Assembly: GCF_010093815.1 (NCBI RefSeq)
Contig: NW_022985576.1
Coordinates: 151,255-198,042, forward strand
Reading direction: 5' to 3'
From: Pseudovirgaria hyperparasitica
Taxonomy: Eukaryota; Ascomycota; Dothideomycetes; Acrospermales; Acrospermaceae
Length of the DNA stretch: 46,788 bases
A program made the translations under genes and the position numbers. The first letter of the stretch is position 1; each line of letters begins with the position of its first letter. The notes below the pieces were generated by a model that had not been told where the DNA came from, ran no database searches, and was given only the letters and a program-made list of their open reading frames with translations. Positions 11,701 through 46,788 of the stretch are shown in pieces.

Positions 11701-12610
11701 AAGTACTTTTCTATAGAGAGCCCTTAGAATATTAAAGTTCTTAGTTTATTATACTTTATACTCTATTATTTAAATCTTCTATAGAGGTACTACTTTCTTA
11801 TTAAACTTACTAAGATAGAAGAACTTCTATACTAGCGCCTTCTCTTAATATAGTAAGATTATATATAGAAGGTTAAGCTTTATAGAATATAATTCTATTT
11901 TAATCTTTAGCTAGCTTATATATAGAGGTATAAGATATATTTCTAGAGAGAGAGATATCTTTTAAGATTTAATTAGTCTTCTAAAGATATTAAGTTCTAA
12001 GTATATAGCTAGAAGAAGTATCTATTATATAATTATTTACTCTTACTAGTCTAGATACTCTAGTAGGTTTTAGGGAACCTTCTAATAGATCTTAGAGTTA
12101 TTAATAGGGTATATTTTAGCTTACTTTCTTTTATATATAATAGCTATACTAAATATTTATAATACCCCTAGCAGATATTATTATTAGAGACTAGTAGAGT
12201 CTACTATAAGCTACTCTATTATTATACTCTATTTATATATAAAGATAGTATATCTAGCTACTATAACTAGAGTAGCTAAGTTATCTTTTCTTAATAACTA
12301 AATAATATTTCTAGACTAGATTTCTTTAGAAGGTATTCCTATATAACTTATCTCTATATCTATATAAAAATATATCTTATTCCCTTTATTAGTAGACTTA
12401 CTATCTCTTATTTAGTATAGATTATTAGTTAAGAATAGCTCTTAACTAATAATCTAACTTAACTCTAGCTCTTAGAGATCTACTCTACTATATAGTTAGT
12501 CTCTAGCTATAGAATTAGTTTTCTTTTCTAAGACTAATATATATTTATCTAGGCTAGTTTTAAAGATTATATACTTTTATCTAAAAACGTCTCTTAAGAC
12601 TATTTATATT
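8700..12610 (-). mobile_element. Second gypsy-type retrotransposon remnant (pol), family 2
   Basis: A different gypsy-type reverse transcriptase reads on the minus strand from about 11,650 downward: YFLIEKKKKA, then a DYRLINLVTK block, a KEFL block and an FTNFFLGYNQI-like block. These match the conserved VDYR..N and DxxxGYxQI regions of gypsy pol, with RIP stops between. RNase H and integrase should follow toward 8,700, but I could not identify them with confidence. The matching gag would lie above 12,610, where LINE copy B begins, so the element was probably split by that insertion. Boundaries are estimates. Confidence 0.55.
12422..12452. repeat. 31-base palindrome, copy 3 (outside a recognised LINE)
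   Basis: Same palindrome with RIP-type changes near the centre. It lies upstream of LINE copy B, in sequence unlike the LINE 5' or 3' flanks, apparently within the gypsy remnant. Confidence 0.9.
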
Positions 12611-17860: not shown

Positions 17861-18430
17861 TATAAATAGAATAAACTATTAATAATACTTATCTAGAAGC
17901 TAATCTTTATACTATAAAAGAGACTTATCTAATATATAGCTACCTAGAAATAAGATTATAATTAAGTTTAGTATATATAAATATTAAAGTAGCTATAATA
18001 ATCTATTTAATATAGATTAGATATTATTATACTATATCTATAAATAGTATACTATATTAAGTAGTACTAACTAGACTTAAGTCCTTTATATATAGTAGTA
18101 TTAAAGATATAGAAAGTCTAAGATATATTATAGTATCTAGATAAATATTATTTACTTATATACTACTATTAAGTAGTACTATACTTATTATTTACTAAGG
18201 GCTAACTTCTATAGAATACTATAGATACTTAGTTACTAGTCTTATAATTCTCTTCTTAAGCTAATTAATATCTTACTATATAATAGCTAATCTAGTAATA
18301 TAAATTAGTACTAATATATTAAGTTTATTTATCTTAGAAGCTATAGTATAATTATTCTACCTCTTCTTCTTAGCCGTTTCTTCTTAAGTCTCTTAGACTT
18401 CTTAAGCTATAAAGTTAGAGACTTCTTTCT
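17861..18430. other. AT-rich stretch between LINE copies, no gene
   Basis: TpA-rich sequence with no recognisable domain, between the 3' ends of LINE B and LINE C. It is probably part of the older element into which both inserted, but I could not identify which. Confidence 0.5.
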
Positions 18431-18681
18431 TAAATACTATATAATAATAATAATATTATTATATAGCTATATAGAGTAGTTTACTCTATAGGTATATACT
18501 TTCTCTAGTCTAAGCTATTATATAAGAAGAAACCTTATATAGAAAAACTCCCTTCTCTCTATAACTATATCTTATTAAGTCTTTATATCTTTCTAAGTAT
18601 ATAGCTATTAAATATACCTATAGACCTATAACCTATATTATTATTATTTTACCCTTAGATAGCACGTATAGAGTATAGAGA

Positions 18682-18712
18682 TTATTAGTTAAGGGTTACT
18701 CTTTAATTAATA
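18682..18712. repeat. 31-base palindrome, copy 6 (LINE C, 3' region)
   Basis: A degraded copy: the left arm is intact and the right arm has several changes. It lies about 250 bases inside the 3' end of the reverse-oriented LINE C. Confidence 0.85.
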
Positions 18713-21700: not shown

Positions 21701-23255
21701 GTATCTATCTCTTCTAAGAGTATTACCTAGTTTTCTTATTTATATTATATATTTATCTATATAATAATAAATATATTATAGCTCCTTATTAGATACTAGA
21801 AAATACTAAAGTCTATATACTAGTAGTAATAAGGCGTGATTATCTCTATATAGTAGCTACTTTAAGAATATCTCTAGATTAGCCTATCTTCCTCTATATA
21901 GTATACTATTATATATTATCTTAGCTTTCTTATAGATTTATAGATAAGATTAGAGTAGATAGTAGAGGTCTTATTTATAGTCTAGTATATCTATATTACT
22001 TCTCTTACCTTTATAGTATTAATATATTTAGTAACTTATTTATATTTTATATATATTACTAACTATAATAGATAGTTTCTATTATAGTTAGAGTACTTAG
22101 AAGTATCTTTATTATATATATAGTTACTCTATACTTTATATAGGTATTTCTAGATACTATAGTTCTATTAGTACTATCTATAAATAGTCTTCTAAGAGTA
22201 TCTCTATCTAGTATATCTATATCTCTAATAGTTAAAGTATTAGATTATTATCTATACTCTATTCTATAGTTCTACTATAAGTAGCTCTTTCTTAGCTAAG
22301 AAGTCTTCTTATAAAATCTAATAGATAAGAATAGAGTCTTAGAGCTCTACTATTATAGTAGAGTACTTTTTTAATTTTACTTTAATTCTCTATATATTCT
22401 TCTACTATACTTTTATAATCTTAATTCTAGGGTACTTCTAGTTATTAGATTACTCTATTTCCTTAATAATATTAATACTAATAATATATCTCTAGATAGA
22501 GACTATATATAACTATATTAGATATATATTAGTATAGATAGATATACTAAAAAAGATATTATTAGTTATATTTAGATTATAAAAGATAGTCTATTAGACT
22601 ATATTAGTAATAGTAATTAATACTATATCTTCTAGAGTAAGTTTAGCTATATTTATATATAACTATATTTCTTTCTATTTATTAATCTTATTAATTATAT
22701 TCCTTAGAGATATCTTTTAGATCTATATAAGAACTTTATTATTCTAGATAATAATCTATATACTATATATTTCTTCTATAGATATTCTTAGTATTTAAGC
22801 TATTCTAGTTATACTATCTAATAGTATTATAACTTATATCTAAGTAGTTAGATATTTCTTTTAGATAAGATCTTTCTAGATTCTTAGTAGACTAGTCTTA
22901 ATCTAGTCTAGTCTAGACTTTAGACTTACTTCTAATATCTATTTTACTTCTATAGTAAGCTCTTTAATATTCTAGACTAGACTTTAGAAGATACTAAGAA
23001 GAGTAGTCTCTTCTTTCTTAATCTCTCTCTCTATATATACTATCTAATAGTTAATCTTATCTAGAAGAGTATTACTAGCTAGGGTTCTCTCTTTCTCTTT
23101 TATCTATAATATTTTATACTCTTAGTTATTTATTACTTTTTAAATAGAGGTTTAATTATTCTAGATTATTCTACTATATAGCTCTTTCTACTATATTAGT
23201 ATTAGAGATATATCTAGTAGAAGCTAGGGTATATTAGTATATAAGACCTCTATAG

Positions 23256-23286
23256 TTATTAGTTAAGGGCTATTCTTAACTAATAA
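23256..23286. repeat. 31-base palindrome, copy 7 (LINE C, 5' leader)
   Basis: Left arm intact, centre and right arm slightly changed. It lies about 240 bases inside the 5' end of LINE C, the same offset as in LINE A. Confidence 0.9.
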
Positions 23287-23529
23287 AAAGAGAGTTAATA
23301 TATTAGTATTTAGTAGTAGTAGTCTATACTTATATTTTTAAAGAGTTTTTAAGTATATATATATAGTATCTCTATATATTAATATTATTATATTCTATAT
23401 ACTATATATATACGTGTATTAGAGATTATTATACTTAGTATACTCTATTAATTAATATATATAGATTACTATATTACTCTAAATTAACTAGTTTAGTCTC
23501 TTAGAGTATAAAGAAGTTTTTCCTTTAAT

Positions 23530-24350
23530 CTCTAATAGAGATATAATTTTAACTTAATTAATCTTTATAATTCTTTTAGATATTAAGAAGGGGTTAGTAT
23601 ATAGATAACTTTTAATCTAATATTCTAATACTTAATAATAGAAGTAGAGTTCTTCTTTTTAATATCTATCTCTTTCTACTTAGTTAATCTACTTTATCTT
23701 TAGTATCTTCTCTATCTTATAGTAGAATCTAGATTCTTTCTTCTAGTCTCTACTTATATATATAGAATCTATAATAATATCTCTATTCTTATTCTTTCTA
23801 GTTATAGTATAATACTTATATAATTCTATAGCTACTATACTTCTTATTATAGTAACTATATTCTTTTTCTATTTCTTATTAGCTATCTTATACTACTTAG
23901 TATCTTCTAAGTTTATTATAATTTTCTTAATCTCTTCTATAAAGCTATAGTAGTCTATAATTTTTAGTAAAGAGACTATATATATATATTAGTAGAGTTT
24001 AAGAAGATATTTTAGAGATAACTAATTTTTATACTATCTTTCTAGTTATCTCTATTAGTACTTAGAAGAAGTCTATTAAATTTAAGTTAGTATTTATACT
24101 AAGATTAGCTATTAATCTATTTAAGTAATAAAAGCTTTTCTAAGGCCTTAGTCTTTTTTTTATTATCTATAAATATATATTTAAGTTATAAAAAGAAGAC
24201 TTTAGAGTTCTTATCTTTTATAGAGCTCTTTTTTTTCTAGAAGTATTATATTTAGTTTCTTTTATATGTAAACTTAACCTCTACTATATCTAATAAGTTT
24301 ATATAAGGTATTTCCTTATTAGGAATAGCTTAATATTAGTAATCGATATT
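23530..24350 (-). mobile_element. LTR-retrotransposon gag remnant
   Basis: The minus strand reads as a low-quality gag-like polypeptide. It ends in a block resembling a zinc knuckle (KEELYFYY, where KxxxCFYC would be expected) near 23,640-23,670, with RIP-type stops throughout. The assignment rests on this weak knuckle and on the transposon surroundings. Confidence 0.4.
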
Positions 24351-24359
24351 ACTAATATT

Positions 24360-24840
24360 ATCTACTTATATATATAAATACTCTATACTCTTATAGAAGT
24401 TTCTAGAACCCTCTAGAAACTTCTAGAGGTCTTTAGAAACACGAACTTCTATAGAGTTCTATTAGGTTCTACTATAGAGTCTATAAGTTCTATAGAGTTC
24501 TACTCTACTCTATTCTATTCTAAGGAAACTACTAGAGCTATAGAACATATACGTACGTCTAGAGGTCTAGAAGATTCCTATTATTAATTAAGAGAAGGAT
24601 CTAGAATATATAAGAAGGAATATATAAGGAACGGTCTCTCTATGTATTTAGTTCTCTCTCTATCTAGTCTTTACTTTAAGAATTATACTATATTCTTATT
24701 ATCTTTAAGCTATACTCCGCCGATCCGTTTATTATATAATAGTCTATTATAGCTAGATCCTATTATATAACTCTATTTAGATATATATTCCTTATATAAG
24801 GAATATTATATATCTATTTATACCTGCCCTTTTTACATTA
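24360..24840 (+). promoter_or_regulatory. LTR-like promoter region with heat-shock-element-like repeats
   Basis: This block is less RIP-mutated than its surroundings. It contains clustered TTCTAGAA and GAAACTTC units (about 24,396-24,455), which fit the nTTCnnGAAn pattern of heat-shock elements, then a TATATAAGG box near 24,627-24,640. The arrangement resembles the U3/R part of a retrotransposon LTR facing right. Its exact ends were not defined and no second LTR was found. Confidence 0.4.
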
Positions 24841-24849
24841 TATACTAGT

Positions 24850-26105
24850 AGAGTATTATAGATAATATTCTAATAGTATTCTAGAGATAGCTTTAGCTTA
24901 AATATAGATTATATCTTATAAAAACTATATAACTATAATAGATAGTCTTAGAAGATAGCTATTTTACTATTTTAGAAGAATAGCTTCTAGTTCTTAAATT
25001 CTAATAGTTTCTAGTTAGTCTATAAAGATAAGACTATTTTTTAAGTAAAGACTTTAGTAGTCTATTTATAGTAGAGTTTAATTAATTCTAGAAGATTTAG
25101 TTTCTTATAATAAGAATCTCTTATTTAAAGACTTATAAGTATTATAGTAGATTAAAGATAGTTTTCTTAGTACTTTATAACTCTATATTTAAATCTAGGT
25201 CTTAGTCTAATTTACCTCTAATATTACTCTATATATTATCTCTAAAGTCTATAGTAAAGTACTTAGAGAGTAAAATAGAATTAAACTTAATATTATAGAA
25301 ATATAATTTATATATAGATATAAAAGTATTTATAGAATATAATAAGTTTAATAAGAGAGAAAGCTAGAGTCTACTTAGCTTTCTTAAGATATAGAATAGA
25401 GTATACTATTAAAAAAGAGACTTACTTAGACTTACTAAATAGAAAGAAAGTAATATAGATATAGTATACTAGTATTAAGTATATCTAGAATTTACTCTTA
25501 ATAAGTAATTAGCTAGAGAGTAGTAAGATCTACTTAGAAATATATTAATATTCTTAGAATTACTTAAATTATAGCTAAAAATATAGTCTATATTAGAGAT
25601 AATCTAATTATTTTAGTCTATATAGATAATATATTAGTTTTTATATCTAATACTAAAGATATAGATAAATCTCTATTTAGAGATAACTAAGTAGTCTAAA
25701 TTAGATATATCTAATCTAGAGTAAGCTAAATATTATCTAGATATAGAAATTAAGAGAGATAGAACTAAGAGTTCTATTATATTATTTTAATATTCTTTTA
25801 TTAAGAACTTATTAATTAAGTTTAATAAAGAAAATATAAAGCTATCTAAAATTCCTTTATTATTTGATATTAAATTAGATAAAAACCTATTATAGACTAA
25901 ATTAAAAGATATTAGATAATTCTAAAGGGAAATTAGTTCTCTTATTAATTTAACTAGTCTAACTAGATATAATCTAAAATATATAGTAGGCTATCTAGCT
26001 AGATTTATATCTAATCTAAGTCTAGAATACTTTAAAGCCTTAAATAAGCTATAGTAATATATATTATTACTAACTACCAAGTCCTCTTATATAATTATAG
26101 ATAAA
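24850..26105 (+). mobile_element. Ty1/copia-type pol remnant, truncated at 3' end
   Basis: The plus strand reads as the C-terminal part of a copia reverse transcriptase: LVYIDNILVFISN near 25,610-25,660 (YVDD box with D to N), then REISSLINLTSLTRYNLKY, then YIVGYLARFISNLSLEYFKA near 25,975-26,040, which matches the copia block xVSYLSRFMSNP..EHWKA. Stops are RIP-type. Homology ends abruptly at about 26,105, before the rest of RNase H and the LTR. Confidence 0.7.
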
Positions 26106-26186
26106 CCGATGAGCCACTTTCAAAAAATTCTATGCCATAGCCAAAAAACACACTCCCCGAGCCGTCCTCCCTCCTTATATATAATC

Positions 26187-27455
26187 ATGTCTAGCTTAAA
26201 AGGACCTTCACGGACCCCCAAATCACAACTTTCGGCCAGTATGGAACACATTCGATATGCTGTTACCGCTGATCCCCTACCTCACCAACCCTTCACCTCC
26301 AGCTCCAGCAAGCCAGACCCGAATCAAAAACGAACTGACCCCTTCCAATTCGGCACCCGCGTGCTTCTTCCCAGTGACGACCCTTTTGCGTATAATGCCT
26401 GGGACCACGCCGTACCAGACGCTGAATACGCCTTGTTCGCCTTGGCACAATATGAGTTCCAGCGCTCTGCACCGGTCACGCCGTTTGACAAAATGCGATT
26501 CAACGCACAGCCCGAAAGATTCTGGAACGCATTCTACGGGAATAACACGAGTAATTTCTTCAAGGATCGCAAGTGGCTAGCGCAAGAGTTCCCAGTGCTA
26601 AATGCGATTACAAGCGAGGGTGCAGAATCTGCAGCACTGTTGGAGGTTGGTGCCGGGGTTGGAAATACAGCGTTTCCAGTGCTTGCTCTGAATAGGAATC
26701 CCAGGTTGAGGATTCATGCAGTAGATTTCAGCGTCAAGGCGGTTGAGCTGATGCGGGCGAATGAGAACTACGTCGAGCCGATGATTCGCGCCGATGTGTG
26801 GGATGCGACGAGTGATATGCTGCCGCCAGGAGTGTGCGAAGGGAGTATAGATGTGGTCATTATGGTTTTCGTATTCAGTGCGCTGGCACCAAAGCAGTGG
26901 GAGGCGTGTGTGAGGAACATCTGGAGAGTCCTGAAGCCGGGTGGCTGTGTGCTGTTTCGCGATTATGGTCGAGGTGATTTAGCGCAAGTGCGATTCAAGA
27001 AGGGGAGATATCTGGAGGAGAACTTTTACATCAGGGGGGATGGAACGAGGGTTTATTTTTTTGAGAGGGAAGAATTACGGAACATATGGTTGGGAAGGAT
27101 GTTCAAGAATGGCAATGATGAGAAAGAAGTCCATGTAGACAATAGGGAAGAGCTCGACGAGAGGGACACTGGGATTGAGGAAAGTCTTGACACACTCAGC
27201 GTGAGTATGAGAGCAGTCATGTCCGAACCGTCGCCAGCCTTCGAAGTCGTCAAGCTGGGCGTCGATCGACGAATGCTCGTTAACCGGCAACGCAAGATAA
27301 AGATGTACCGATGCTGGATGCAAGCAGTGTTCAAGAAGCCCGGTCCGACATCCCTTCTCGATCAGTTATCTACAGACGCCATTTCACGTCAAAACATAGG
27401 CGACATTATGCCTCCAGAAGCAATGGACGAGGTAACAGTTAGAGCAATTCCCTAA
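26187..27455 (+). CDS. TRM140: tRNA(Thr/Ser) cytosine-32 N3-methyltransferase, Trm140/METTL2-METTL6 family
   Basis: The protein adds the m3C mark at position 32 of threonine or serine tRNAs, using S-adenosylmethionine, in the cytosol. The 422-residue chain shows the family signature in order: DPFQFGTRVL, NAWDH, RFWNAFYGNNTSNFFKDRKW, then SAM motif I (LLEVGAGVGNTAFP), an acidic VWDATSD motif, the RVLKPGGCVLFRDYGRGD block, and near the end VDRRMLVNRQRKIKMYRCWM. It is a single exon. An earlier in-frame ATG at 26109 lies three bases after the transposon remnant, and a later Met codes MEHIRYAV; I chose 26187 because only this start leaves room for a leader, but the longer form is possible. The actin-binding N-terminal extension of the yeast protein is absent. 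The gene is tail to tail with the GGT gene, 68 bases apart. Confidence 0.88.
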   Translation: MSSLKGPSRTPKSQLSASMEHIRYAVTADPLPHQPFTSSSSKPDPNQKRTDPFQFGTRVLLPSDDPFAYNAWDHAVPDAEYALFALAQYEFQRSAPVTPFDKMRFNAQPERFWNAFYGNNTSNFFKDRKWLAQEFPVLNAITSEGAESAALLEVGAGVGNTAFPVLALNRNPRLRIHAVDFSVKAVELMRANENYVEPMIRADVWDATSDMLPPGVCEGSIDVVIMVFVFSALAPKQWEACVRNIWRVLKPGGCVLFRDYGRGDLAQVRFKKGRYLEENFYIRGDGTRVYFFEREELRNIWLGRMFKNGNDEKEVHVDNREELDERDTGIEESLDTLSVSMRAVMSEPSPAFEVVKLGVDRRMLVNRQRKIKMYRCWMQAVFKKPGPTSLLDQLSTDAISRQNIGDIMPPEAMDEVTVRAIP

Positions 27456-27523
27456 AGCTGAGGAAACCGTACCTTGACGTTGTTTCTACATATTGCTTTA
27501 TTGTCTACTGACTACTGTTTCAC

Positions 27524-29335
27524 TTACACCGCAAAGCCACCGGAGTTCATCTGCCTTGGCTCACCCGCAGCCTCAAACGTTCCGTTACCTAACCTCCTCA
27601 ACGCCTGGGCCGTACTACCTCCAGGCGCTACAAAAGTGATGTTATGCCCCTTCTCGCGCATATAATCCACCGTATCGTTACTGTACGTAAACTCAAAGCT
27701 CGTGGTCAAGGGAATTAGCTGGTCATGCAAGCGCGGCTCTTTTAGTGCTTGCAGCGTTGTCATGTTGCGGTCCAAGACATTCCATATGTTTTGTATGGTC
27801 GCTGTGGTGATGCGGCTACCCCCGGCGGCCCCGACGACAAGGTATAGCGTGCCATTGGGGAACTCAACAATTACGGGCGACATGGACGAGAGTGGACGTT
27901 TACCAGGTCGGACGTAGTTGGCTGGGCTGGGGATATAGCCGAAGGCGTTGGTCACGTTCGGGATGGAGAAGTCATTCATTTCGTCGTTCATGATTATACC
28001 GGACTCCGGGACTACGACTTGCGAACCAAAGAGCAAATTTATAGTCGTTGTAAGGGAAATAGCCATACCAGATGCATCTGCGACATTGATGTGTGAGGTC
28101 CCAGGGGTGTTGAGAATTTCAAGACCCTTGGGATCATATGCAGAAGCGTTCAAGGTGTGGGAGTCTGAGATGCGACCTTTCACTGCTAAGGCGAGGTCAT
28201 TGGAGATCATGTCCTGGACGTACTCGTCCATATCTGCCAGGAATAGAGGGTCGCCGAGTTCGGTCCTCTGGTGTCAAGTCAGCTCGCTGAACAGCGCTAC
28301 ACGTGGTGTAGTCGCCAAACATACCATGCCGTACGCAAATTTCATCGCTTCATCCAACCTATGTGTCGTGATGTTGAGCCCTGCTTCGCCAACTGCTTCA
28401 TACTGCTGCAAGATGTTTAACGCTGCCAACGCCACAGGCCCACCCCCTGGCGCACCAATACTCGACACTTTGTATCCTCGGTAGTCAATCTGTGTAATGT
28501 TTCGGACTGCCACAGTGTAATTCTTCAGATCATCCAATGTCATCGTACCATTGCAGCTCTGCAACGTAGTAATCATTGCCTCAGCCAGCTCTCCTTCGTA
28601 AAAGGCATTCGGGCCACCGTTTGCGATCTTCTCCAGTGTATTCGCATACCGTGCCCGTGTGATCGTCTGGTTCAATTGAAGCCTCGTCCCATTCGGCGCA
28701 AAGTCTTTCGCGAACTCTGCGTTATGCACCAGGAAATCCCCGGTGCTGCCTGAAGCTACAGCTGAGGCCATGTATGATATCAAATCCTCGTTGACACGCC
28801 ACCCAAGTCGCGCGACCGCGATCGCGGGCGCCATCAACTCCGCCCAGCTAAACTTCCCACTTCCGTAGTTCTCATAGATGTGCTGAAGCCCACGAACCTC
28901 GCCTGGCACGCCGCTCGCTAGTCCGCCGTAGACACTTCCGTTCGAGTTATCCTTGTACATATCCTCGTACGCTGCAGCTGGTGCAGTTTCCCGGAAGTCG
29001 ACAAACTCGAACCGCTCCTTTTCAGATGTGCACAAGCTGTCCGGCTTGCGAATCAATCCAAATCCACCACCTCCAACGCCACTGTGGTACATTCCCACAA
29101 CGCCGACGCAAAAGACAGTTGCGACGAGAGCATCGGCGGCGTTGGAGCCATCCTTTAGAAAGGATGTGCCAATGCGGGCGCAGATGTCAGACTCGCAGGA
29201 GACGGCGCCAATGGTAGACTCGTGGGCCTGTCCGTGATAGTATGGCGAGTAGTCGGATCGTTGGCCATATAAGGTTGGGTTGGCGAACACAGGACTGAGG
29301 AGAAGGGCTACATATAAAGTCCGAGGGGGGGCCAT
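27524..29335 (-). CDS. gamma-glutamyltranspeptidase (glutathione hydrolase), secreted, one intron
   Basis: The enzyme cleaves or transfers the gamma-glutamyl group of glutathione and its conjugates. Exon 1 is 29335-28325 and exon 2 is 28267-27524; the 57-base intron 28324-28268 has donor GTATGT and acceptor CCAG and joins AYGM to RTELGDP in phase 0, giving 584 residues. A hydrophobic signal peptide (about residues 7-18) suggests secretion or a vesicular lumen. Visible family features are GSNAADA, the HSGVGGGGF block, DFRETAPAAA (Arg binds the glutamyl carboxylate), the LGDP motif, and PGTSHINVAD, whose Thr (about residue 394) is the expected self-cleavage nucleophile; then VVGAAGGSRI. Several NxT/NxS sites fit secretion. 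AT-rich DNA begins only about 35 bases upstream of the ATG. Confidence 0.93.
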
Positions 29336-29369
29336 AGCCGGAAATTGGAAGTGCCAGCCAAAGGAAGAC

Positions 29370-30089: not shown

Positions 30090-32358
30090 ATGGCCCCTCG
30101 TCGGCGATTAGATAATAAGGACGCAAAGCATCGCTCGGCGGAGTACTATATTAGCCAGCGCAAGACGTTCAACAAAGCCGAAGTCAACGTGCGAAACCAC
30201 AGCCCGTCGACCAGGACGCTGAAGAATCTGGTCCACAAGAAATGGGAAGAGTATGGCCTAGCTATCCCTTCGTGACGAGACTTCCGCAGCCTGTTCTCCC
30301 TCGTGGAAGCCTAGTGTAAACTGACGTCCTCAATAGGTATTTTCGCATCGTGGACGGTGATGCTGTAGAGGCGCTCAAGAACTTCGAAATGATAGATATC
30401 TACGGTTTCTTTGACTGGTGGATCGAAGAGTCATGCGGAAGTTTTGACGCTTGCTCCACGTTGCAGACCTATTGGAACGTGCTGGGTCTTGTACGCCATG
30501 AAAATTTCCATCTGATGGTGGATCCGACCACAAAGGAAGAGGCCACGAATGTAAGTGAGCGTCAATCTTGCCACGAGGTCGCTCACCCCTTCACAGGCAA
30601 GGCAATCGCTTGCGGTAAAACATCGACTCCGAAAAGAACCCAAAGAAAAGCCGATCATGCGAGCGGAGGACGAGTTTGAGTGCCTCCAGACTCTATGGAG
30701 CTCCCGAGAGATCATCTTCGATTTGGAATTGCACCGCCTCGTGCTTGCTCTCATCATCCAGCTAGCGGGCATCACGGGTAACCGGCCGAAAGCACTCCTC
30801 ACCCTTCGCTACAGGCACGTCCAGGTAGCCTTGCTTCCCGACCCTAGAGGGGGCAGCCGACCACGGGTCTTGATCGAATTGAAATTTGAGCAGACCAAGG
30901 GTTACCTAGGTCAGAAGGATGCGTAAGTCCCTCCCCTTAAGTTCAAATGTGCAAAAGCTCAACCTGAATGGCCTCTAGCAATACCATTCCTGTTCCAGAT
31001 ATCCTTAACGAGACTTGTTTGATGCTTTGTCCGCACATCACTCTTCTCGCCCTGGCCTTCAGGCGCGGCGCATTCGCCGTGCCCGATTTGACGCCGGCGC
31101 AGTTCTACGACCTGAAAGTGCTTCCTGGACAACGACAACAGTTGATTCCATGGAAAGAGGAGGTGCAAGACGACTATCTATTCCCGAGATCAGTGAAGAC
31201 GTCACTGGGGATCGAGGTTGGCCATGATCACCTTCCATACGATTCCCTGCGCCAACGATTGGCCAAGATCGGCGAGGTCACCGGAATGGCATTGCCCGTA
31301 GGAGCGTATTGCTTCCGACGAGGGAATGGAGAAGCTTTGGACAGCAGCAGTAATGTTGCACGTTCTGACCAGGACGAATCTAGAGTGGCTAATGGGACAC
31401 AGGCCACATCAGCGAGGCACAGCGTAATCTATGCCTACAACACGGGCCCAACTCGGCTGTATTCCAGCGAAACTATCTATCGCGACACATCACTGCTGAC
31501 ACACAGGCGGCGTTCCGTGGACTCGAACCCCAGACGGATGTGATGCGTGTGGCTACCGGCATGAGCCGTACTATCGACAAACGGCGCCCTACTCGCCTCA
31601 ACCCGGAGCAGCAGGAAGAGGCTCATCGTCACCCTCGGGTACAGAAATTACTTCGGGAGAAACTTGATCTGAAGGCGCAAATGAAGGACCACGGCCGAAC
31701 TGTGAAGAGCTTCGAAGGTACTGCTCTGTATGATAGGTACCGGCTTGCTAAGCAAGCGTACGAGGGCGAATATATCTTCCAGCAGAGGTCGCTATTGAGA
31801 CAAATGAAACAAGTCTTCAACTCTCAACAGCCCGTATTCGATATTGAGAGTCAGATACGCAAGACAGGCTCTGATAACGAGGATGGATCTAAGTCTCTTT
31901 TGTCGACGCGGCCCGAGCTGATACCTGAACGCGTTGCAGCACTTGAAGCTCTTTTGCAGCTAGTCCCATCCTCGCCGGGATCAGAACACGAAGACCGGGC
32001 TAAAGCCGTGCAGACACTTGTCGAATTAGCTCACGTACAAGACGGGCACCCCGTTGTCGTACGGCGTCAAGCGCGTCGGCTCCTCAGTCCGCTCCCTGCG
32101 CCCGAGAGACCCCTATCCTTAGACTGTAAGCCACTGCAATGCTTCCTCTGCCTTGGGAACGCAAAGAACCCTGTGGCGCAGCGATCGTGGGAGTTTCACA
32201 GCAGAGGTGACTTGAAGAAGCATCTCCTTCGTCACGCGCAAAAGCATGAGGGCAAGTGGCCTCTTACATGTCCCATAGACGGGGAACGGATCATTCACCA
32301 GCAGCATTTGTTAAGTCATGCACACGCCAAACACAAGACGCCCTTGATTATAAGGTAA
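30090..32358 (+). CDS. DUF3435 tyrosine-recombinase-like protein with C-terminal zinc finger (FluG-domain/captain-like)
   Basis: Five exons join cleanly: 30090-30250, 30337-30550, 30597-30922, 30979-31349 and 31403-32358, with introns of 86, 46, 56 and 53 bases, all GT-AG. They give 2,028 coding bases (675 residues) with no internal stop. Tyrosine-recombinase landmarks are visible: first Arg in GITGNRPKALLTLRY (Arg188), KFEQTKGYLGQKDANT, second Arg in YCFRRGNGEALDS (about 347-348), His in RNLCLQH (371), and the candidate nucleophile Tyr382 in FQRNYLSRHI, followed by ADTQAAFRGLEPQTDVMR. The C-terminus has Cys/His pairs of C2H2 type (CFLC ... HLLRHAQKH, then CPIDG ... HLLSHAHAKH). DUF3435 proteins include the captains of Starship elements; whether this one mobilises DNA is inference. 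No Starship boundary or cargo was recognised. It converges on the next gene. Confidence 0.85.
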
Positions 32359-33278: not shown

Positions 33279-33685
33279 GAGGTCTGCCGTAGAATCTTCG
33301 AATGAGACCTGCCTAAATTTTTTTCTTCGCCTGTTTGGTCTGCTTCGGTGGAGGCTAGATTGTGTACATTTGGAGAGCTTGTGAGCTGATGCAGAAATGC
33401 ACTGGTGTGACCGAGGTGTCTTCCGTCAAGATGGGCCGATAGCCTTATTATAGAAGTAGAGACGGATACCCTTGCATTTATATATCTGTCTCCTCAGCCA
33501 GAACATTGAGCACTTTGTTTGAGCGCGTGAAGGCACGGATTCGAGGGCATTCTGGTAAAGCGTTTCGATGGACTTCTAGAAGGACTTCGGATCCAAGCTC
33601 TCCCGCTACGCCGCACACAGACGACGCTTGGATGATAGGCCTCCATGCCTTTCCAGATTACCGGCATACGCTCTCAGTCACTTCT

Positions 33686-34303
33686 TTAAATCAGTGTTTC
33701 AACTGTTGAGGTATCAAGCTGCAGTCTTGTTTTAACAAGCCAGATTGGATTTGTAGCAGTCGCTGTTGGTATCCCAGCGGCAACGGCAGCGTAGGCGTGA
33801 ACTATGGCCGCGTCTTCTCCGCACCCTAGCATCTGCGCTCCAAGATATTTACAGTTGCCGTAGACGTAGAATTTAATTGCAGTTGCAGGGACTACGCCTG
33901 CAAGGCTTGGCCCGAGACCTCGATAGAAGCCGCGCCAGCCTTCGGTATGGGAGATGGAGCCAATGATCTGGAAGGTGCCGCGAATGTGGTCCTTCGATGG
34001 ACCAAGAAAAGTAAGCCTGGACTGGACGGGAGACGCAGGAACGAGAGAAGGGCGGTGGTAATCTGATTGGAGTCGAGTTCGCAGACCATCAAGCGGGGAT
34101 GTAACAAGCGCTGTGGCTAATCCTCCATTGCTTTAAGCAACAAGTCAACTTTGTATAAGTAGATCAAGGCTGTTCGTGACTTACGCGCCAGCAAGCAGAT
34201 GTACCCAAGATCGTACCGGTCTCTGCTCTATCGAGCTACTATTTTTTGTCTTTGGAAGTATTGCTGAAGACTGAGAGCTGTGACGCATCGATTCCTGTGC
34301 CAT
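33686..34303 (-). pseudogene. truncated mitochondrial carrier, Rim2-like (pyrimidine nucleotide transporter type)
   Basis: Exon 1 (34303-34185) and exon 2 (34130-33686) are joined by a 54-base GTAAGT...AAAG intron and encode 187 residues. WVHLLAGA leads into NGGLATALVTSPLDGLRTRL, the first PxDxxR carrier signature. GWRGFYRGLGPSLAGVVPAT then precedes IKFYVYGN, and the second signature follows as NPIWLVKTRLQLD; a Trp in that position is typical of nucleotide, NAD and folate-type carriers. These proteins exchange pyrimidine nucleotides across the inner mitochondrial membrane. The chain stops 10 residues later at TAA, so the third of the usual three repeats is missing and the six-helix barrel cannot form. 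Either a pseudogene or a 3'-truncated duplicate. No obvious third repeat lies downstream. Confidence 0.75.
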
Positions 34304-35607
34304 TTTCGTGGTTCATCGACGGCTATGTGCGTGCAATGGAGTGCGAGCTACGACGAAACAAGTCGCGTTGAAACAGATGTACACGCATGCGACACAGAAG
34401 AATTCATTGGAAGACCAATCAAACGAGCAGTGAGAGAAAAATTGAGAGCGTGTTGATGAATATGGAGCTTCTGTAATATCGCAGTGAAAATCTCGAGGAA
34501 ACACGAATCTAAGCTGCGAGAAAGTCTTGGAGTTTCGGCAGAGCCGAGGAGTCCCCAGGGGCTGAGTCAAACAACCCGAGTCTTGCAACGTCTCCAAAGA
34601 CTTTCAATTCGGACTGAGTGTAGTCTACAACAAGATAGTTCTTCCACTTCGAAATCAATTCGCGAAATCTGTAGGTTTTGCTCGTGAACGCGTTGCTCAG
34701 TATTGAGGACAGCCGTTAGCCACACAGTGCGCGACATGCTTGAACATTTCAAGTAATCGGCTCGACTATGACATGGATGTGCAGAAGTGGGCCCATTCAC
34801 ATGCCTACACGGTAGAAAATAAATTAGTCACACAAATGCGCCCAAATTGAATATTATCGATGCTCGCAGACTTCTACAATTCGCGCGTCGTTTTGACATT
34901 GCTGGACGGACGCTGACTAATCAAGAACGGAATGGGTCGTCCCATTTATTTAGCCTGAAACCTCTTCCAGTAGAAAAGCACAACACAGCGGGAACGCAAA
35001 TTGTTGGAATTTAGTCGAAATAAAGCATCAGAATACGCGTGCCTGTGGCCGCGATAGTTGCTACAGGTCATGGCGCGTCCCCCAACGCCCATTTGCACCT
35101 GCTTAGCTGCTGTTGCGGTCACAACGCGCCTGGACAACACACCCTGCGAGCAAGTCACGATCACAACGCGTCCGTCAAAGCGAATGGCAGCCATCTAGCC
35201 AATCAAGCGAAGCGAAACATGACGACGAAGCCCAAGTACCCGATCACAATAGTCATCACCGAATATACAGCCATCGACGGGCTCCCTGCAGAGCACTGCA
35301 GAGCCCAGCCACTCGACAATACTTGCAACATCCCGCATCAACAAGCTCTCGAATTGAACAGCATCATCTCCTACTTGAATCGAACACCAGACACTCGGCA
35401 TGCTACTGCAGATGCCACCCAATATTACAGTTATCAGACAGCCTCGCCCACTGTCGCCTCCCCCCCCCCCCCCCCCCCCCGAAAAAGCCGTGGAAAAGGA
35501 TTGGTCACCCTCCAACACGCACCCGATAACGTCTGAGGAGATTCAAGCTGGAGCTCTCGTGCCTATTCTATCGACAGCTCGCACGAGCGGAGCGTCATAT
35601 CCGTACA
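34304..35607. other. intergenic region with a 21-base poly-C tract
   Basis: No convincing gene. It lies between the start of the carrier gene and the 3' end of the Dicer-like gene. An uninterrupted run of 21 C occurs at 35,460-35,480. The plus-strand ORF over 35,039-35,536 is mostly low complexity and reads through that run, so I do not call it. Confidence 0.6.
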
Positions 35608-38600
35608 TCAAGACCATTTATGTGCCACACAGTGCCAGTACTGACCTGGGTGGAACAAGCAGGTGCAGAAACTTCGGACGGCAATGTCGGAGTACGAAAA
35701 CGACAGGTGGAGAATAATCGCGACCAAGGTTGGGAACGGTTTCTCTCTAGCCTCATGGATGGCACCTATGGCGCTCTCAACGATATCAGAGAAGACCTTC
35801 TCGGCCCTGGCTTGTTCCAATTCCGCCCAAGGATATTCATGGCCGTTGTATAGTGCCTCGAGAATTGCTGCACGAAGGCCTATATGACGCGCATGGATTG
35901 CATGCCGAGCTTGCAGTAAGTCTGGCGAGTTGTGACGCAAGAAATGATATAACGACCTGGTGAAGTCCTGGATTCCAGGTTCGGTGACGGAGTCCCACTT
36001 CCGTTTTGCCGTCTTTGGCAGATCGTAGCGCACTTCGGAGATCTTAAGCTCAAACATAAGAAAGGCGAGGAGGTATCCGTTGACAAGTGCGGTGCGGAAC
36101 GTATGCATTAGAACGTGCGACAGCGGTGGATTGTGTGCGTACAATCTTGTCGAGATAATGTAGTCGATCACGGCATCGCCGAGGAACTCGAGTCTTTGGT
36201 AGGAGCTTATTCGCTCATGGTGCGGTGGTGAGTACGATGGGTGAGTCAAGGCTTCAGTAAGAAGAGATACTCGATCAAAGGTGTGGCCTAACAGTTCTTC
36301 GACCGGTTTGAAACGCGAGGGCGGAATACCAGTTGTTTCTGGGGTCGCTGAGAAGAGAATCTTGTTGGCATCATGTATCGAAAGCTATGGTTCCCGGGGA
36401 AGTAAAATCTGCATGCATGTCAATGCATCAGATATCCGACCTCTAGACAAATATGATGCGCCTATCAAGGACTCAACAACATCGGCCAAGGTTTTAGTAG
36501 AAAAATTGTCTTTCTGCTTGGCTTCTTGTTTTTCATATTGTCGAGCGTGCACATCAGATAAGTATTGCGGTCGCCACTTGACACCGGTAAATCCTGTTCG
36601 GATGATGTATTGATCGAGACCAGCATCCAGAGATGCTTTGGCAAGGTATCCATTTGAGACGGTGCGTCCTTTCTCGGCTGTGAGATAGCTCTCTGGCCAG
36701 GTAAGATTTCTTGCCATTAGGCGGATCGAAGAGGCGAACTTGAGTAAGGCATCACCGAGATATTCCATGCGCTGATAGTTTACATGCTCTCTAGCCGACG
36801 TGGCACACAAAGCTGTCAAAACGAGATGCACATCAGTGAAACCAACATGAGCAAATATGCCAGCGGAAAGATTTTGGGCCACCATGTAAACTTCTAGACG
36901 ATGCAAGACGCAAGGCGCAAAGGTCACAGCAGTGACAAGATCTGCTGGCAACATTTCGATGACACTGTCCGCCAGTTCAAGTTCCAATACAGCTGTATAC
37001 GCTGAATTTTGCTTTTCCCGGGCATCCACTTGGTGGAGGAAGTCTTTTCTCTTTGGAAACTTATTCACCTTCAAAACATATTCCTTGGATCCTTGTGATT
37101 GTTCATCTCCTCTTTTATATATTTTTTGGAGTACAAATCGTTCACTGGCTCCATGACGCCGCACCAATCCAAGACGACTTGAATGGCCATCCATGATTGG
37201 ATGCTTCTCGAGGATCGTTGCTGGTAGAGCCCCAGATGTGGTCGCTACAAAGTCGTCGACTGCAGAAGTACTAAGCTCTACGTTGGGTAATAGAAGCACG
37301 ACAAAGTCGAACTTGTTGGAAACTAAGCGGTGTGAACCCAGACTTGACGACAAGAGATGATAGGCGACTTTTTGAAGCGACTCGACCAGATCGTCTTCTA
37401 TATGCATGGGTTGGTCCCTCTGGAGCTCATAGGAGACCTCGTATACCAGCGACTTGTTCCAATATAGATTGTATGGTGGAATTGTAGGTAAAGGCATGGT
37501 CGTCATCACGTCAAACTCACAATTGTGGTTAGCACTAGAGAACCGGATGCGATACGTGTAGCGCTGGTCTCCTATAGCCGTCGCGTGAAGGGTCCAAGGA
37601 TCCATCTTTGGATTGACTGGTACCATGGCTGGGCGGTCACCTATCATATCGCATTTAGGTGCTTCATTAACCTCACCATGCAAAGGCAACAAATTGCTGC
37701 CAATCAATCCGGCTTCATGCAAGGCCTTGTAGGCTTGAAAAGCAGCATCCTTTCTCGCGTCTTTCTCATTTTTCCACTTCGAAATACCCTTGTGACGTCG
37801 GAGAGAGGCGTCCACAGCCAGTGGAAGGGTAACCTCTGCCGAAAAACAGCCTTCGTTATCTGTATCGAGTTTAAATTCAGGTTGGTGGTCCGTATGTGGA
37901 CTTGTCCTCAGGGTGGCGCAAAAATGAAAAAGATGAGGCAATACGCCATCGGAAGTAAGTAAGGCTCTATAGACAGCTAGTAAGCAAAGCATTGCGAATG
38001 AGAACAGACCAGGGTCTGTACTACTTACTGCGTCGAGGCAACATACAAGCTGTAGTCATCAGCCTCGTCGATTAACTCTGTACTGTTCATAGGCTTGATC
38101 TGACGCGACTCATCGGCATACTCGTCTTTCAGGATCTGCTCTAGTGTGGACCATTTTGTCACCGAAGACGACTCTGATGCATTTTGAGGTATCATGATCA
38201 CGAAACTCGAGGCCAATTTTCTGGCCCTGCCTCTGCGCTGCACATACATCTTCAGGTTTGTTGGCGCATCGAAACATATCACGACGTTACAATTTGGGAC
38301 ATCAATGCCTTCCTCAAGGACACTGGTGGTAACTATGAGGTTTTTACGACCCTCTCGAAAGTCCTTCAAGGTTTGGTCTTGACCTTTGATATCAACCAGT
38401 TCTGCAACGTCCTCGGATCGACTCGGAGATGAAGAAGTACCCACGAAAGCCCCAACCTGGAAAGACTGTTTTAGGTCGAGATCATTTCCGATCACATCTT
38501 CAAGAGCATTCACCACAGCTCGTCTTTCGGCGAAGATAAGACCCCTGAAGTCCTTGTGGTATGCTTTCTTGAGATAGCTTATCAGGGCAGTAGCCTTAGC

Positions 38601-39842
38601 AGATGTACCCTCAGCAGGAGACCCAGAAGATACTAGTGCTACAATTTTGCGAAGCAATGCCATCAGATGAGTCTTTTCTCGCCCGGACCAGCCGAGCATA
38701 TGTGACTCCTCGTTCATTTCAACCGCGTCTTTGAGCCGGTCTACACACCGCACGATGTAACGTTCAGCTGCAATTGCGCCAAGCTGCTCACAAACGCTAT
38801 AAGCCCTAGACTGAATGGACTTCAGCTGTTCCAGGCAATATGGATTCCTTCGCGAATGCCTTACTAAGTTTGCATTCGGCGGTCGGATCGTAGCGCATCC
38901 TTTCATACAAGTCCTGGATATACGGATCACTCGCGAGATCATAACCTTGGTATGCTTCCTGTAGTGCTGTCATAATGGCATTACTTCTAATATTTCGCAT
39001 TGAGAGGTCGACCTGAAAGAATACTGGTTCCAAATTAGGTCGATGCACGTGCTGCAAGAATTCAGTCTGATGGATCTTAGGAATGGTGACGTGAGAATCC
39101 AAGTTCTGCTCGATTGTTCTGAGAATGTCAGAGACCGGCAGATATTATATCTAGTGTACGTACTGCAAAGCTTTTGGATCGCTGTTGATCACTGGGCTTG
39201 CGGTGAGACCGAGAATTGGCGGTACTAATGATGGGTTCTTTCGTCGCATTGTGTGATAGAAATCATTCATAATCCTGTCCATTGGATGGTTCTTAGTACA
39301 ATGATGGGCTGGGTGGCGTTAGAGATACAGCATTACTATATTGATCAGACATACCCTCGTCAAAAATGAGCAAAGCCAGTCTGGTCATTGGAACAAAACC
39401 ATGGGTCAGAGCTTGAGCGAGTATATCCAACGTCGAAACGACTACACTCATATTGTAAAGCACTGCATCCCACGTTCGCTGGTCGGTCCACGTGTCGACA
39501 TTCTCGATGCTTGTGAGTTTTCAAATCTGGTAAGCCGGTAGTAGTGTCTGGAATACTTGATACTGTTGATTGCACAGAGCCACAGTCGGAGCTATAAACC
39601 AGACAACCTGAATGTCAATTAACCTTGAATCAAACACGTGACCAGCTCCAGGCAGTGACAGACATACTTTATACGGGTCGCAAGTCTCTAACTCTGTTCG
39701 AGCTCTACTAATGGCTATGTGGGTCTTGCCGCTACCAGTATCCATCTATAAACGAACATTAGCCACAGAAAGGCATAGAATGGGAAAGCAGTCTCAGACT
39801 TGCCGCCACGATTATGTTTTTCTCAAGGCTCTTCTCCAGCAT
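35608..39842 (-). pseudogene. Dicer-like ribonuclease (DCL2 type), disrupted
   Basis: Dicers cut double-stranded RNA into small RNAs for silencing and antiviral defence. Exons: 39842-39804, 39745-39668, 39607-39355, 39308-39164, 39118-38029, 37966-35608; introns of 45-62 bases, the first GC-AG. Domain order is complete: helicase motif [26 protein letters not shown] box (split by intron 3), GLTASP, VTTSVLEEGIDVPN, motif VI YVQRRGRAR, dicer dimerisation region, RNase IIIa (YQRMEYLGDALLKF ... TLADVVESLIGA), RNase IIIb (YQRLEFLGDAVIDY ... VFSDIVESAIGA). Three lesions break it: TGA at 39523-39521, a one-base frameshift between about 38,870 and 38,838, and TAG at 36387-36385, where relatives tend to have Trp. 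The N-terminus begins just before motif I, and no dsRNA-binding domain follows RNase IIIb. About 1,320 codons. Confidence 0.88.
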
Positions 39843-39849
39843 TTCAGTT

Positions 39850-42800
39850 TGTTAGGACCAAAACCGAAACATTTCGTTCTCCCGAGCGATATCGATCGGT
39901 CTGAAACTTGCACAAACGAAGCGGCTCCCACGAATCTACGTATTCTTATGGTTGAGATCATACAAGTCTTATGGTACGGTTCGTCAGGTTTATAGGGTTA
40001 TTTAAAGCAGGAAGAAATCGTCGAGGAAAGGGTGATGAGCAACAGGAGTCCTAGACAGCTGGGTGTAAACCGACAGACGCATTTCGCCATGAAGGCTCAT
40101 CAGGGACTAAGATTTGTTGTTCTTTTGTAGATGAAAGCGTCGGTCAGTTGTACCACAGACCTCCGATTGGAATGTGCAGCCATTCCAAATCATACTACAG
40201 TCACCTAGTCACGTTCTCCCCGAGAATCGCTGTATATGCACGCATGGTTTTAAAGGAGTCCTGCTAGTGGTCTTGGTCTTGAGTTTAGGGGATCTTTTGT
40301 GCCATGTATCTTGCACTCCTCAGTCGTTGGATACTCAGAACAATTGACGCACTATTGGCCTACTACACATGCACGCACAGATGTGCCCGGCGCTACAGAT
40401 CGGACCGTTCTGGTTACCAGGGAACATCATGACACCGCCACACTATCCCTAAGACAAGCGACTGAAGACGGGGGGCTGTAATTCAGGCTAGAGCCTGGTT
40501 CTGTGTGGTCGGGAATACTGGTACCGAAGACGCCAGTGGCAGGGGAAGGGTGTAACGTGGCCCTTCCGGAGACTGATGGCGAGCCTTCAGCAAGGGCGGA
40601 ATGTGCGGCCTGTCCGCTCGCATATACGGCAGCCTACCTATCAGCCGTCACGATATGGTATCCACTCCTTCCTCTGGTGAGACTCGATTTTAGTGGTGCC
40701 GGTGAAGCATAGCCAAGCCAACTGACAAGGTGTAACGAGTGGGTCTCTTCTCGGACGCTCGCGTTGGAATATGCGGCGCTCGAAACCCCCTTGCTCTCAG
40801 GCATGCCTGGTCGACCCTTGCCATTTGAAAACGGACTAAGGTCCAGAGTGTCGTTTCTGCGTCCCCCAAACGGGGAAAGCAGTCTCTGCGGGTAGGCTGG
40901 GGGTGTAGTTCTCTGCTAGAGCATTCCACGGCGGTCGTGAAACGCTTTCCAGCTGGTGAACGGAGTCGACCCCCTCGAGGTTGGCACCAGGCTTGGCCGC
41001 AAAGCCCCCCAGCATCGTAAAACTACTCATTCTCCCTTCGTTGCGAAGCTCCTCACAGCACGTGAAATTGTCCTACATTATTACCGTCATGTCTCCATCT
41101 AATCATGAGAAGCAACCAAAACCACAAATCGACAGTACGGTCTCAGGGGCGTCAGGCCGTCTGATGGCAAAGGGGACTTGGACCTACAAGCAAACTGATG
41201 TCCGTCAGCAAGCAGGTACATGGTGATGTCTGTCCACACATCTACGGTGATGACGTTGTATTGTTTCTCATGCTCAAATACCATCGAATTTAACCATGGC
41301 CCGCATCTCCAAACGAATGCGAGTGTTCAGCTATGCCCGTCAAATTTTCAATTATGGTCATGGTACGTACGCCTTTGGAGAAAGAACCGTAAAGTGCTGC
41401 CCTCACTATTCATGATTAAAAGTACCAAACAGATAAGCAATATTCTTGACGCTTCACAGGTTCGCGACCGTCCTGACATCTACCAGATATTCCATCATAA
41501 AGAGGCTTCATACATTGTTCTGGAGGACATGGCAAGCCACAACGGCCTTGCAAATCCCTCAGCTAAGTACATCTAACTGTTTCTTTCCCAATGCAATCAT
41601 TCACCAGAACGTGTCTGCCGTAATGGGACTCGCCGCTTGCCTTCTCTCTCGGACACATATACTCACTCAGTAACCACAAGCATTGAGGGGAGCCAGTACC
41701 ATCAGTGATTCATCCTCATAACACACCAGAATCTAAATTTATAGAATAGATTCTCTAGCGAGTTCATTTCCGAAAGCCTGCTAAATACATGCAGTAAATC
41801 GATTGCGCGTTCCGTCTGACCTACACGTTATGATGGGGTTGAAAGATAGTTGCAGCACATCAAGCACAATTACAAGAGGGCACAATGATAGATACTGTGG
41901 GTCTTCCTCCACCACCCCTGACAGGGTGACGCAGTATACGGGCGGCTGGTGTGCGACAAAGCGGCACTGGCACTACTGATCGTCGTATGCGGGATCAAAA
42001 GTAAGTCCTCCCGCTTGAGATTGCTTCGATGTATGGGTGCATGGATTGCTGCCAAGAGCAGCTTTATCCTGCCAAATCACACCATGCAGGATATCCCTGC
42101 ACAACGAATTGGAATCAACAGGAGGATCGCTTCGAAATTGAGAATCTCGAGGAGGTTCACATTCTGGAGCAGAAGGTTTAGACCTAATATTGTGACCATA
42201 ATGATCAATACAGCACTTCGCCAACCTCTCATGATGATGGCGGTTGGGGATAAAGTTTGGTTGTCGTGGGACTAGAAGACTGGAGATACACAGCAGTGGG
42301 TAAGGACGGGGGGAGGGGGGACTACGATTGTGGACTCGGATTCTCCAGTCCCTCATGCACTCAAGTTCAAGTTCGATGGCGAAAGAAGGACATGTGCACG
42401 ACGATAGTAGGCAAGTCTCTGCACCGTGAAGGATCAACCTGTCTTGGGGGCAACACGTCCCTGCTGTAGGCCCCTCATCTCCTTCCCAAAGGTTTGAAGT
42501 ACCTGTGACTAATTAATAATGTATTATGAACAAGGGAAGGAGTGTCGTCTAGATGACACGATGCTAGAAATCATCCATGCAATGTAATCAGTGACAAGAG
42601 CATTGGTCTCACCTATGAATCGATTGGGCAGCTTAGGCGAAATCCTACCGGCACAAGCCATGGGTATAGGTAGCTCTTATGCAGAATAGCAGAGCCTTTA
42701 GCAATATGACCCATCGTTACAGTTGGCCCCCTCCATCCTGTCATTTTGGAACTATAGTTTGCTATGCATAAGTGGCTTAAGGATAAACGTACTAAAAGGG

Positions 42801-43083
42801 TCTCTTTGCATAATATTACAGGCTCTAGTGACCTTAAAATTGCCCTAGTTGAATGAACGAAATGAGACGCAAATATTCTAGACATCTAGGAATTTAAGTA
42901 AAGCTCTAGCTCTTCCAAATGAAATATGCGTTAAGATGGAGTTCCATCACCATTTCCAATTTTCCTTTGATCGTCCACCTTCCACGACGTCTTTCCAACT
43001 TGTTTTCAACTCGATAGCAACGCCCTCGAAATTATAAGACAGGTGTATGAGAGGTCCAGCTCAACATGCCAACCACACAATAC
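39850..43083. other. long intergenic region, no confident gene
   Basis: The sequence is GC-balanced and not RIP-mutated. Short ORFs occur on both strands, but none has a recognisable domain over a useful length. A possible eroded fragment at 41,461-41,500 reads VRDRPDIYQIF after a good acceptor site. A G-rich patch lies at 42,306-42,320. I see no tRNA or rRNA here. Confidence 0.5.
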
Positions 43084-43766
43084 TCAATAGAAGGCCCTAA
43101 CATAATCTCCTCCGACCTCTCTCTCATCCACATTCGCCAACTCATAGATCTTCTCAACACGAACCACATCCAAGCCCTTGCCTAAAGGGCTCAGTGCATC
43201 GCTCCTAAGAACACATGAAAACACCATATCCCACCCCTGAACGCCTGACGCATAGAATGCTTCGGCGGCCGCACTCTCTCTGCTCCCGAATCTCAGTACC
43301 TTGAAGACCTTCTCTGTCGGACTCGGCCCTCGTGCGCTAAAGCCCGGGGCCATGCAGGTGACACATGTGTACACGTCGTCGTCCAGTGGTGCAGCAAACA
43401 CGCGACTAGCCCATACTCTTGGAATGCTGGCGTTCAGGAGAGACTGCTTTCCCCGTTTGGGCGACGCAGAAGTCTAGGGGGAGATTGGCCGAATGGTAAT
43501 TACTGTCCGCAGCCGACAGTCTTGATGGTAGTCCCAAGTTGAAACTGTTCAGATCGATACTTCGAACGACGAGTGCAGCGATTGCAAGCCTTGACGGCAG
43601 GGATACCAGCACATCAATGCGAAAGTCTTTAGACTCTACAACAGTTTTGGATAGTACATTGCTGAGATATAGATAGTCAAGTAAGAGTTCCAGCTTCATG
43701 AAATGACTCTTATGGTATAATGCCAGTAGCAGCCCCCTGAGCCCACCTCGCCTCACCATCACCCTT
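43084..43766 (-). pseudogene. hypothetical protein, two abutting frames (possible frameshift)
   Basis: Two minus-strand frames are end to end. The upstream one (to 43,406) reads MKLELLLDYLYLSNVL ... LPLDFCVAQTGK. The downstream one (to 43,084) carries on naturally as NASIPRVWASRVFAAPLDDD, then VYTCVTCMAPG and a Lys/Glu-rich C-terminus ending YVRAFY. The switch falls at a GGGGAAA run near 43,450, where a one-base slip would join them. Neither frame alone has both a good ATG and full length. No family recognised; it may be a decayed gene, an assembly error, or chance. Confidence 0.3.
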
Positions 43767-46406: not shown

Positions 46407-46434
46407 GTTAGTTAGTTAGTTAGTTAGTTAGTTA
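46407..46434. repeat. (GTTA)7 tetranucleotide repeat
   Basis: Seven exact GTTA units in a row, about 40 bases past the end of the acidic reading frame. It is not a telomeric TTAGGG array. Confidence 0.95.
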
Positions 46435-46471
46435 ATTCCTACACGGTTTCAGCCGCGATTACTCCGCAGCT

Positions 46472-46669
46472 ATGCCCGGCAGAGAGGACCTGTCAAACAG
46501 CCGACGCGTTCCGGATCATTTGATTGATCCGTCCCGCCCCACGTCGCCCTATCGCGAACGACAAGACCAGCTGTCCCAGCATCCTCCCGTTGCTTCTCCA
46601 ACTACTATTTACATTGGCCTGTCACGCCTGTGTAACATAGCAGTTCTACTAATTGTACTGCTGATCTAG
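46472..46669 (+). CDS. short hypothetical ORF
   Basis: An ATG-started frame of 65 codons beginning MPGREDLSNSRRV. Its C-terminus ends in a short hydrophobic segment (CNIAVLLIVLLI). No family recognised; it may be chance. Confidence 0.15.
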   Translation: MPGREDLSNSRRVPDHLIDPSRPTSPYRERQDQLSQHPPVASPTTIYIGLSRLCNIAVLLIVLLI

Positions 46670-46788
46670 GCTCCTTAAGGCTCTCGCCTTGTGTTCCCAA
46701 CCCGTATACCTAGAGTCTCCCCCCAGTGCTCGACTTCGCCTACGCGTCCCTGACCCGGAATTGCCCAAGGGTCTCCGTCCGTTCTATA

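Follow-up and report, generated by a model that had tools for sequence, protein, structure and literature searches.

The window analysed here is a stretch of 46,788 bases on contig C28 (G000:C28:151255-198042), and the genome in which its parts were searched comprises 35,028,730 bases on 59 contigs. The short introns, the RIP-like AT blocks, and the gene content suggest a filamentous ascomycete. On the reverse strand of the window lies a truncated copy of a fungal Dicer gene, the features of which are listed in Table 1. The Pfam run covered three open pieces of this copy, with the N-terminal helicase pieces lying outside it, and gave Helicase_C, Dicer_dimer, and two Ribonuclease_3 matches. With helicase, dimerisation, and two RNase III parts present, the copy belongs to the fungal Dicers by sequence family, the DEAD domain being scored on its intact relative on contig C2 only. 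Both RNase III motif pairs are kept (YQRMEYLGDALLKF/TLADVVESLIGA and YQRLEFLGDAVIDY/VFSDIVESAIGA), and the Walker A sequence is visible in the alignment with the C2 locus. We take both genes to be DCL2 rather than DCL1.

Table 1. Features of the Dicer-like copy and of its borders, counted from the first base of the window.
Feature	Position	Strand	Basis or remark
Truncated second DCL2 copy (very probably a pseudogene)	35758..39984	-	alignment with the C2 locus
84 bases of the C2 locus, with its start codon, absent	39900..39901	-	alignment, exon coordinates
In-frame TAA	39852..39854	-	C2 exon frame
In-frame TGA	39521..39523	-	C2 exon frame
Two bases lost, frame broken	between 38842..38843	-	alignment
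Helicase_C	38223..38591	-	Pfam, residues 88-210 of the open piece 38028-38852
Dicer dimerisation domain (Dicer_dimer)	37675..37941	-	Pfam
RNase IIIa, signature motifs kept	36439..36774	-	Ribonuclease_3 profile
In-frame TAG	36385..36387	-	C2 exon frame
RNase IIIb, profile positions 1-98 of 102, ends at the truncation	35755..36198	-	Ribonuclease_3 profile
161-base repeat abutting the truncated 3' end	35597..35757		also on C43 and C14, 94-95%
Flanking repeat on the 5' side of the gene	39993..40246		85% like C20:369-621; 81% like a C2 stretch

The relative on C2 (G000:C2:2343129-2347671) has six uninterrupted exons that encode 1423 amino acids without stops, introns of 45-62 bases (one GC-AG and four GT-AG), and Pfam matches to DEAD, Helicase_C, Dicer_dimer, and two Ribonuclease_3 stretches. 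In the whole-genome DNA search, it was the one other locus found, covering query positions 3-4093 of 4243, and the two remaining matches spanned the terminal repeat only. Aligned with C2:2343137-2347281, the window copy shows 95.8% identity over 4145 columns, and another 85 bases upstream match the C2 locus at 95.3% identity. The splice dinucleotides of all five introns of the C2 gene are kept in the window copy, as had been predicted, and the first intron is GC-AG in both copies alike. As the introns were retained, the window copy was not retroposed. The original prediction placed the gene at 35608..39842. The Dicer is indeed there, but the real homology extends from 35758 to 39984, and the last 150 bases of the predicted interval are repeat; the end at 35608 was that of an open frame, which runs on into the 161-base repeat. 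The ATG at 39842 that was predicted as the start is internal, and the start codon of the C2 gene falls in the 84 bases that are absent from the window copy.

The alignment and the exon coordinates of the C2 gene identified six lesions in the window copy. The three that had been predicted are all real: the TGA at 39523-39521 and the TAG at 36387-36385 are in frame with the C2 exons, and the frame change near 38,838-38,870 corresponds to the two missing bases. However, the count was short by the TAA, the loss of the start region, and the 3' truncation. The truncation at 35758 removes the last 129 of the 1423 codons; RNase IIIb lacks its extreme end, and the C-terminal tail is gone, so that the earlier statement that every domain is present goes too far. 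The window copy has neither an uninterrupted frame nor a start codon; judged by its sequence, it cannot encode a full Dicer, and it presumably makes no working one. The description as a dead Dicer was thus right, and so was, for this copy, the suggested option of duplication followed by loss.

Both truncated ends lie next to repeats. At the 3' end, the junction sequences of Dicer and repeat share at most one base. The flanking repeat of the 5' side has its closer relative at C20:369-621, which adjoins a telomere, and the matching C2 stretch is some 30 kb away from that contig's end. Repeats on this side have relatives on the small contigs C35, C39, C42, C46, C48, and C59 and at contig ends, and they also match internal sites of larger contigs (C1, C24, and C26, for example). 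The flanks match the ends of C21 and C39, and window positions 46412-46736 recur without a difference as the first 325 bases of C21. Repeats and gene fragments thus form a mosaic on both sides of the window copy, and a subtelomeric position of the copy is likely. The telomere pattern itself was not found on C28; its 62 matches in the genome are all on C9, C12, C16, C17, and C20. As a side aspect, inverted terminal repeats of 33 bases (40855-40887 and 43439-43471, 32 of 33 identical) bound a 2.6-kb stretch. Pieces related to 40855-43471 occur on C35, C39, C46, and C48, and the open frames tested in it contained no Pfam domain.

It was in principle conceivable that the lesions were assembly or sequencing errors in an intact gene, and the two-base gap alone could be such an error. 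However, the window copy and the C2 locus differ by 172 mismatches in 4143 aligned bases (121 transitions and 51 transversions), which are distributed as 50, 35, and 71 over codon positions 1, 2, and 3, with 16 in introns, and by just two gaps, of 2 and 84 bases. This codon-position pattern, which looks like divergence in the course of evolution, argues against errors, as do the truncated ends that abut repeats. Furthermore, the neighbouring methyltransferase and gamma-glutamyltranspeptidase genes at 26058-29368 are single copy (DNA search; matches stop at 26068), and this stretch of C28 is therefore not a redundant haplotig. Assembly error appears unlikely as a general cause of the lesions, and an intact gene that was simply misread is hardly conceivable. 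An in-frame TGA in the gamma-glutamyltranspeptidase gene was considered as a further lesion and rejected, as it reads as lying inside a short GT-AG intron.

A dead Dicer had raised the suspicion that this strain has lost an RNA-silencing branch. The genome search for other Dicer genes, which had been proposed as a check, returned four Dicer_dimer and 8 Ribonuclease_3 matches and led to two genes, the DCL2 gene on C2 and a DCL1-type gene on C16. The latter is made up of an open stretch of 290 aa, where helicase motifs occur, one short exon, and an open stretch of 1296 aa to which Dicer_dimer matches once and Ribonuclease_3 twice; by eye, no lesion was visible in the gene. A fourth Dicer on C7 was rejected, as the Dicer_dimer match was weak and none of the 8 Ribonuclease_3 matches of the genome was there; by eye, the open frames on C7 resemble those of a dsRNA-binding protein. 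Profile searches also detected three Piwi-domain loci and about five RdRP loci; the latter comprise seven matches, three of which have internal stops that may be introns. From their sequences, two Dicers look intact and one dead, and the genes on C2 and C16 probably work. No silencing branch is visibly lost: with uninterrupted DCL2 and DCL1-type genes and with Piwi and RdRP loci present, the suspected loss is unsupported, which removes this suspicion from the strain.

The in-frame TAG had been read as a signature of RIP. Differences of the C/T type carry the T in the window copy at 71 sites and in C2 at 50 sites (P = 0.07). There was no CpA enrichment in the direction of the window copy (16 of 597 CpA versus 55 of 1400 other C, one-sided Fisher P = 0.94) and none in the direction of C2 (13 of 595 versus 37 of 1368, P = 0.79). 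The composite RIP index of the window copy (-0.56) resembles that of the C2 source locus (-0.61). Hence, neither the concentration of C-to-T changes at CpA nor the raised index of a RIP-inactivated duplicate was found, and the reading of the TAG as a RIP signature is unsupported; a single stop is compatible with a RIP-type transition but is not enough for the claim. The AT-rich stretches 3001-12000 and 18001-25900 of the same window have RIP indices of +1.6 and +1.5 and (CA+TG)/(AC+GT) ratios of 0.03 and 0.02, respectively, and an extremely RIPed AT block lies about 10 kb from the window copy. RIP thus acted in this genome and left no trace on the window copy. Inactivation of this Dicer by RIP and loss of a silencing branch in the strain would agree with the one RIP-type transition and with the RIP-like AT blocks nearby, but the lack of CpA enrichment in either direction, the index shared with the source locus, and the uninterrupted DCL2 and DCL1-type genes leave this reading with practically no credibility.

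Some further observations concern the RIP background. Positions 1-26000 of the window consist of AT-rich blocks with a GC content of about 22% and nearly no CpA/TpG, alternating with stretches of 37-39% GC; they include inverted copies of 2.2-2.7 kb, and at about 26 kb the sequence changes sharply to normal GC. The first 3 kb of C20 (C20:1-3000), which adjoin a telomere and have a repeat in common with 39993-40246, show a RIP index of +1.51, although the flank of the Dicer copy with which they share this repeat is un-RIPed. A stretch at 33474-34757 is present at three near-identical places (window, C26, and C47; about 97%). The mitochondrial carrier gene fragment (Mito_carr) contained in it, at 33474-34680, differs from the copies on C26 and C47 by 16 and 18 mismatches in 1182 aligned bases, with no CpA excess, albeit in small numbers. 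A broken RID gene was considered as an explanation of the missing RIP and rejected. The C20 candidate, a RID-like cytosine methyltransferase that is presumably RID, is without obvious lesion; open stretches of 432 and 219 aa flank an apparent intron, and the DNA_methylase profile matches the first piece. Further DNA_methylase matches were seen on C4 and C5.

As to the mode of decay, the NG86 comparison of the window copy with the C2 gene gave dN 0.031, dS 0.076, and an omega of 0.40 (bootstrap 0.30-0.57), values that take no account of the transition excess. When the ratio of nonsynonymous to synonymous changes was related to the neutral expectation from the observed spectrum, it was 0.62 (bootstrap 0.44-0.85). 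This value lies roughly halfway from constraint to neutrality, where one free and one constrained copy would be expected to place it. Three stops were observed, whereas 6.1 would be expected with all coding changes unconstrained and about 3 with half of them unconstrained. The substitution pattern and the stop count fit decay without constraint from the duplication onward. Polarisation with a DCL1 outgroup assigned 12 changes, including one stop, to the window copy and 9 to C2 and left 66 uninformative, so that the dead copy has just a small surplus. The Helicase_C score of the window piece (68.9 bits) exceeds that of the intact C2 gene (60.6 bits), indicating that the intact gene, like the dead one, has diverged from the family. 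The decay had been called recent. This applies in a relative sense only, with a dS of 0.076, and the number of lesions fits unconstrained decay during a large part or the whole of this period.

The uncorrected omega of 0.40 leaves room for some constrained period, and the second DCL2 could have worked for some time after the duplication and died later in place. The upper omega bound of 0.57, the preserved RNase III motifs and five splice-site pairs, and the small surplus of changes in the dead copy would be in line with such a working phase. However, the corrected ratio and the three stops fit decay from the start, and the start region and the 3' end are missing, the latter abutting a repeat directly. 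We therefore regard a working phase as rather improbable.

An intact paralogue, retained introns, and inactivating lesions characterise an unprocessed pseudogene, and all three were found. With high confidence, we regard the window copy as an unprocessed, truncated DCL2 pseudogene, most likely a duplicate of the C2 gene, that decayed without RIP. In the course of events that we propose, about 4.3 kb of the DCL2 gene, most likely the resident gene on C2, would have been duplicated at the DNA level and would have arrived in a repeat-rich, possibly subtelomeric stretch without the start-codon region and the 3' end. End joining probably placed the copy at its present site. Ordinary point mutation and a small deletion would then account for the decay, RIP not being involved, and the copy would be derived from this genome's own gene and not from another lineage.

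The last of these points has a competitor, which shares the pseudogene claim and differs in the origin alone: the same dead copy could be a DCL2 allele from a diverged lineage that came to lie near a chromosome end through introgression or with a mobile element, possibly one bearing DUF3435, and its RNA could tune the resident DCL2. The DUF3435 family comprises tyrosine recombinases that include the captains of Starship elements; a Starship has such a recombinase at one edge, defined ends, and a site that is empty in other strains. A profile search of the genome found a single DUF3435 gene (30555-32358), which lies about 3 kb from the 3' end of the window copy. A foreign allele would explain a RIP-free 4-kb copy of 96% identity among hyper-RIPed blocks, that is, a dS of 0.076 without a RIP pattern despite strong RIP in the genome, and 51 of the 172 differences are transversions. 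A different allele, brought in by introgression, was likewise considered and proposed as the origin of the extra dim2 copies in Zymoseptoria (PMC8016269). However, the carrier gene fragment with its copies on C26 and C47 is equally free of RIP, and missing RIP need not mean foreign origin. Overall, we consider a foreign allele of this kind unlikely and derivation from the resident C2 gene the better explanation. The frame changes and the TGA inside one match of the DUF3435 gene were also considered as lesions and rejected, as they read by eye as short introns, and the gene shows no obvious lesion.

As the window copy shares 4.1 kb at 95.8% identity with DCL2 and the genome contains Argonaute and RdRP loci, one might also speculate that it is transcribed and that its RNA or small RNAs tune the resident DCL2. 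There is no sign of selection preserving its sequence, and such a regulatory role is very improbable.

The closest parallel that we have seen is formed by the subtelomeric dim2 copies of Zymoseptoria tritici (PMC8016269). In this fungus, extra non-functional dim2 copies are found in subtelomeric, repeat-embedded places, and one presumably functional dim2 is retained in 5 of 22 genomes (PMC8016269). Both cases concern a dead, repeat-embedded extra copy of a genome-defence gene that also shows transversions relative to the native gene. They differ in that the dim2 copies are described as multiple and heavily RIPed, with the native gene mutated in most isolates (PMC8016269), whereas the DCL2 copy in the window is single and without RIP pattern, its native gene is uninterrupted, and its subtelomeric position is only likely. 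Among the literature matches listed (titles and abstract openings), none named a duplicated, dead, or truncated fungal Dicer locus, which does not prove its absence from print.

Compared with fungal DCL2 genes in general, the window copy has the same order of helicase, Dicer dimerisation, and two RNase III domains and is nearly identical to the resident C2 gene, but it is truncated at both ends and has three stops and a frame loss. Like other unprocessed pseudogenes, it kept its introns, lost its ends, has an intact relative elsewhere, and is surrounded by a mosaic of repeats and gene fragments. Nothing clearly sets it apart from these except that a 4-kb duplicate is RIP-free amid strongly RIPed blocks. 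It is an ordinary pseudogene with this one mild puzzle. Hyper-RIPed blocks beside the RIP-free duplicate and the 1.2-kb carrier fragment raise the question of when RIP stopped in this lineage or, alternatively, whether such copies came from elsewhere. For gene surveys, the locus is a reminder that counting could score three Dicers here, two of which look intact. This intact number resembles that of a survey of RNAi genes, in which 111 genomes together have 232 fungal Dicer genes and thus about two each (PMC4290597).
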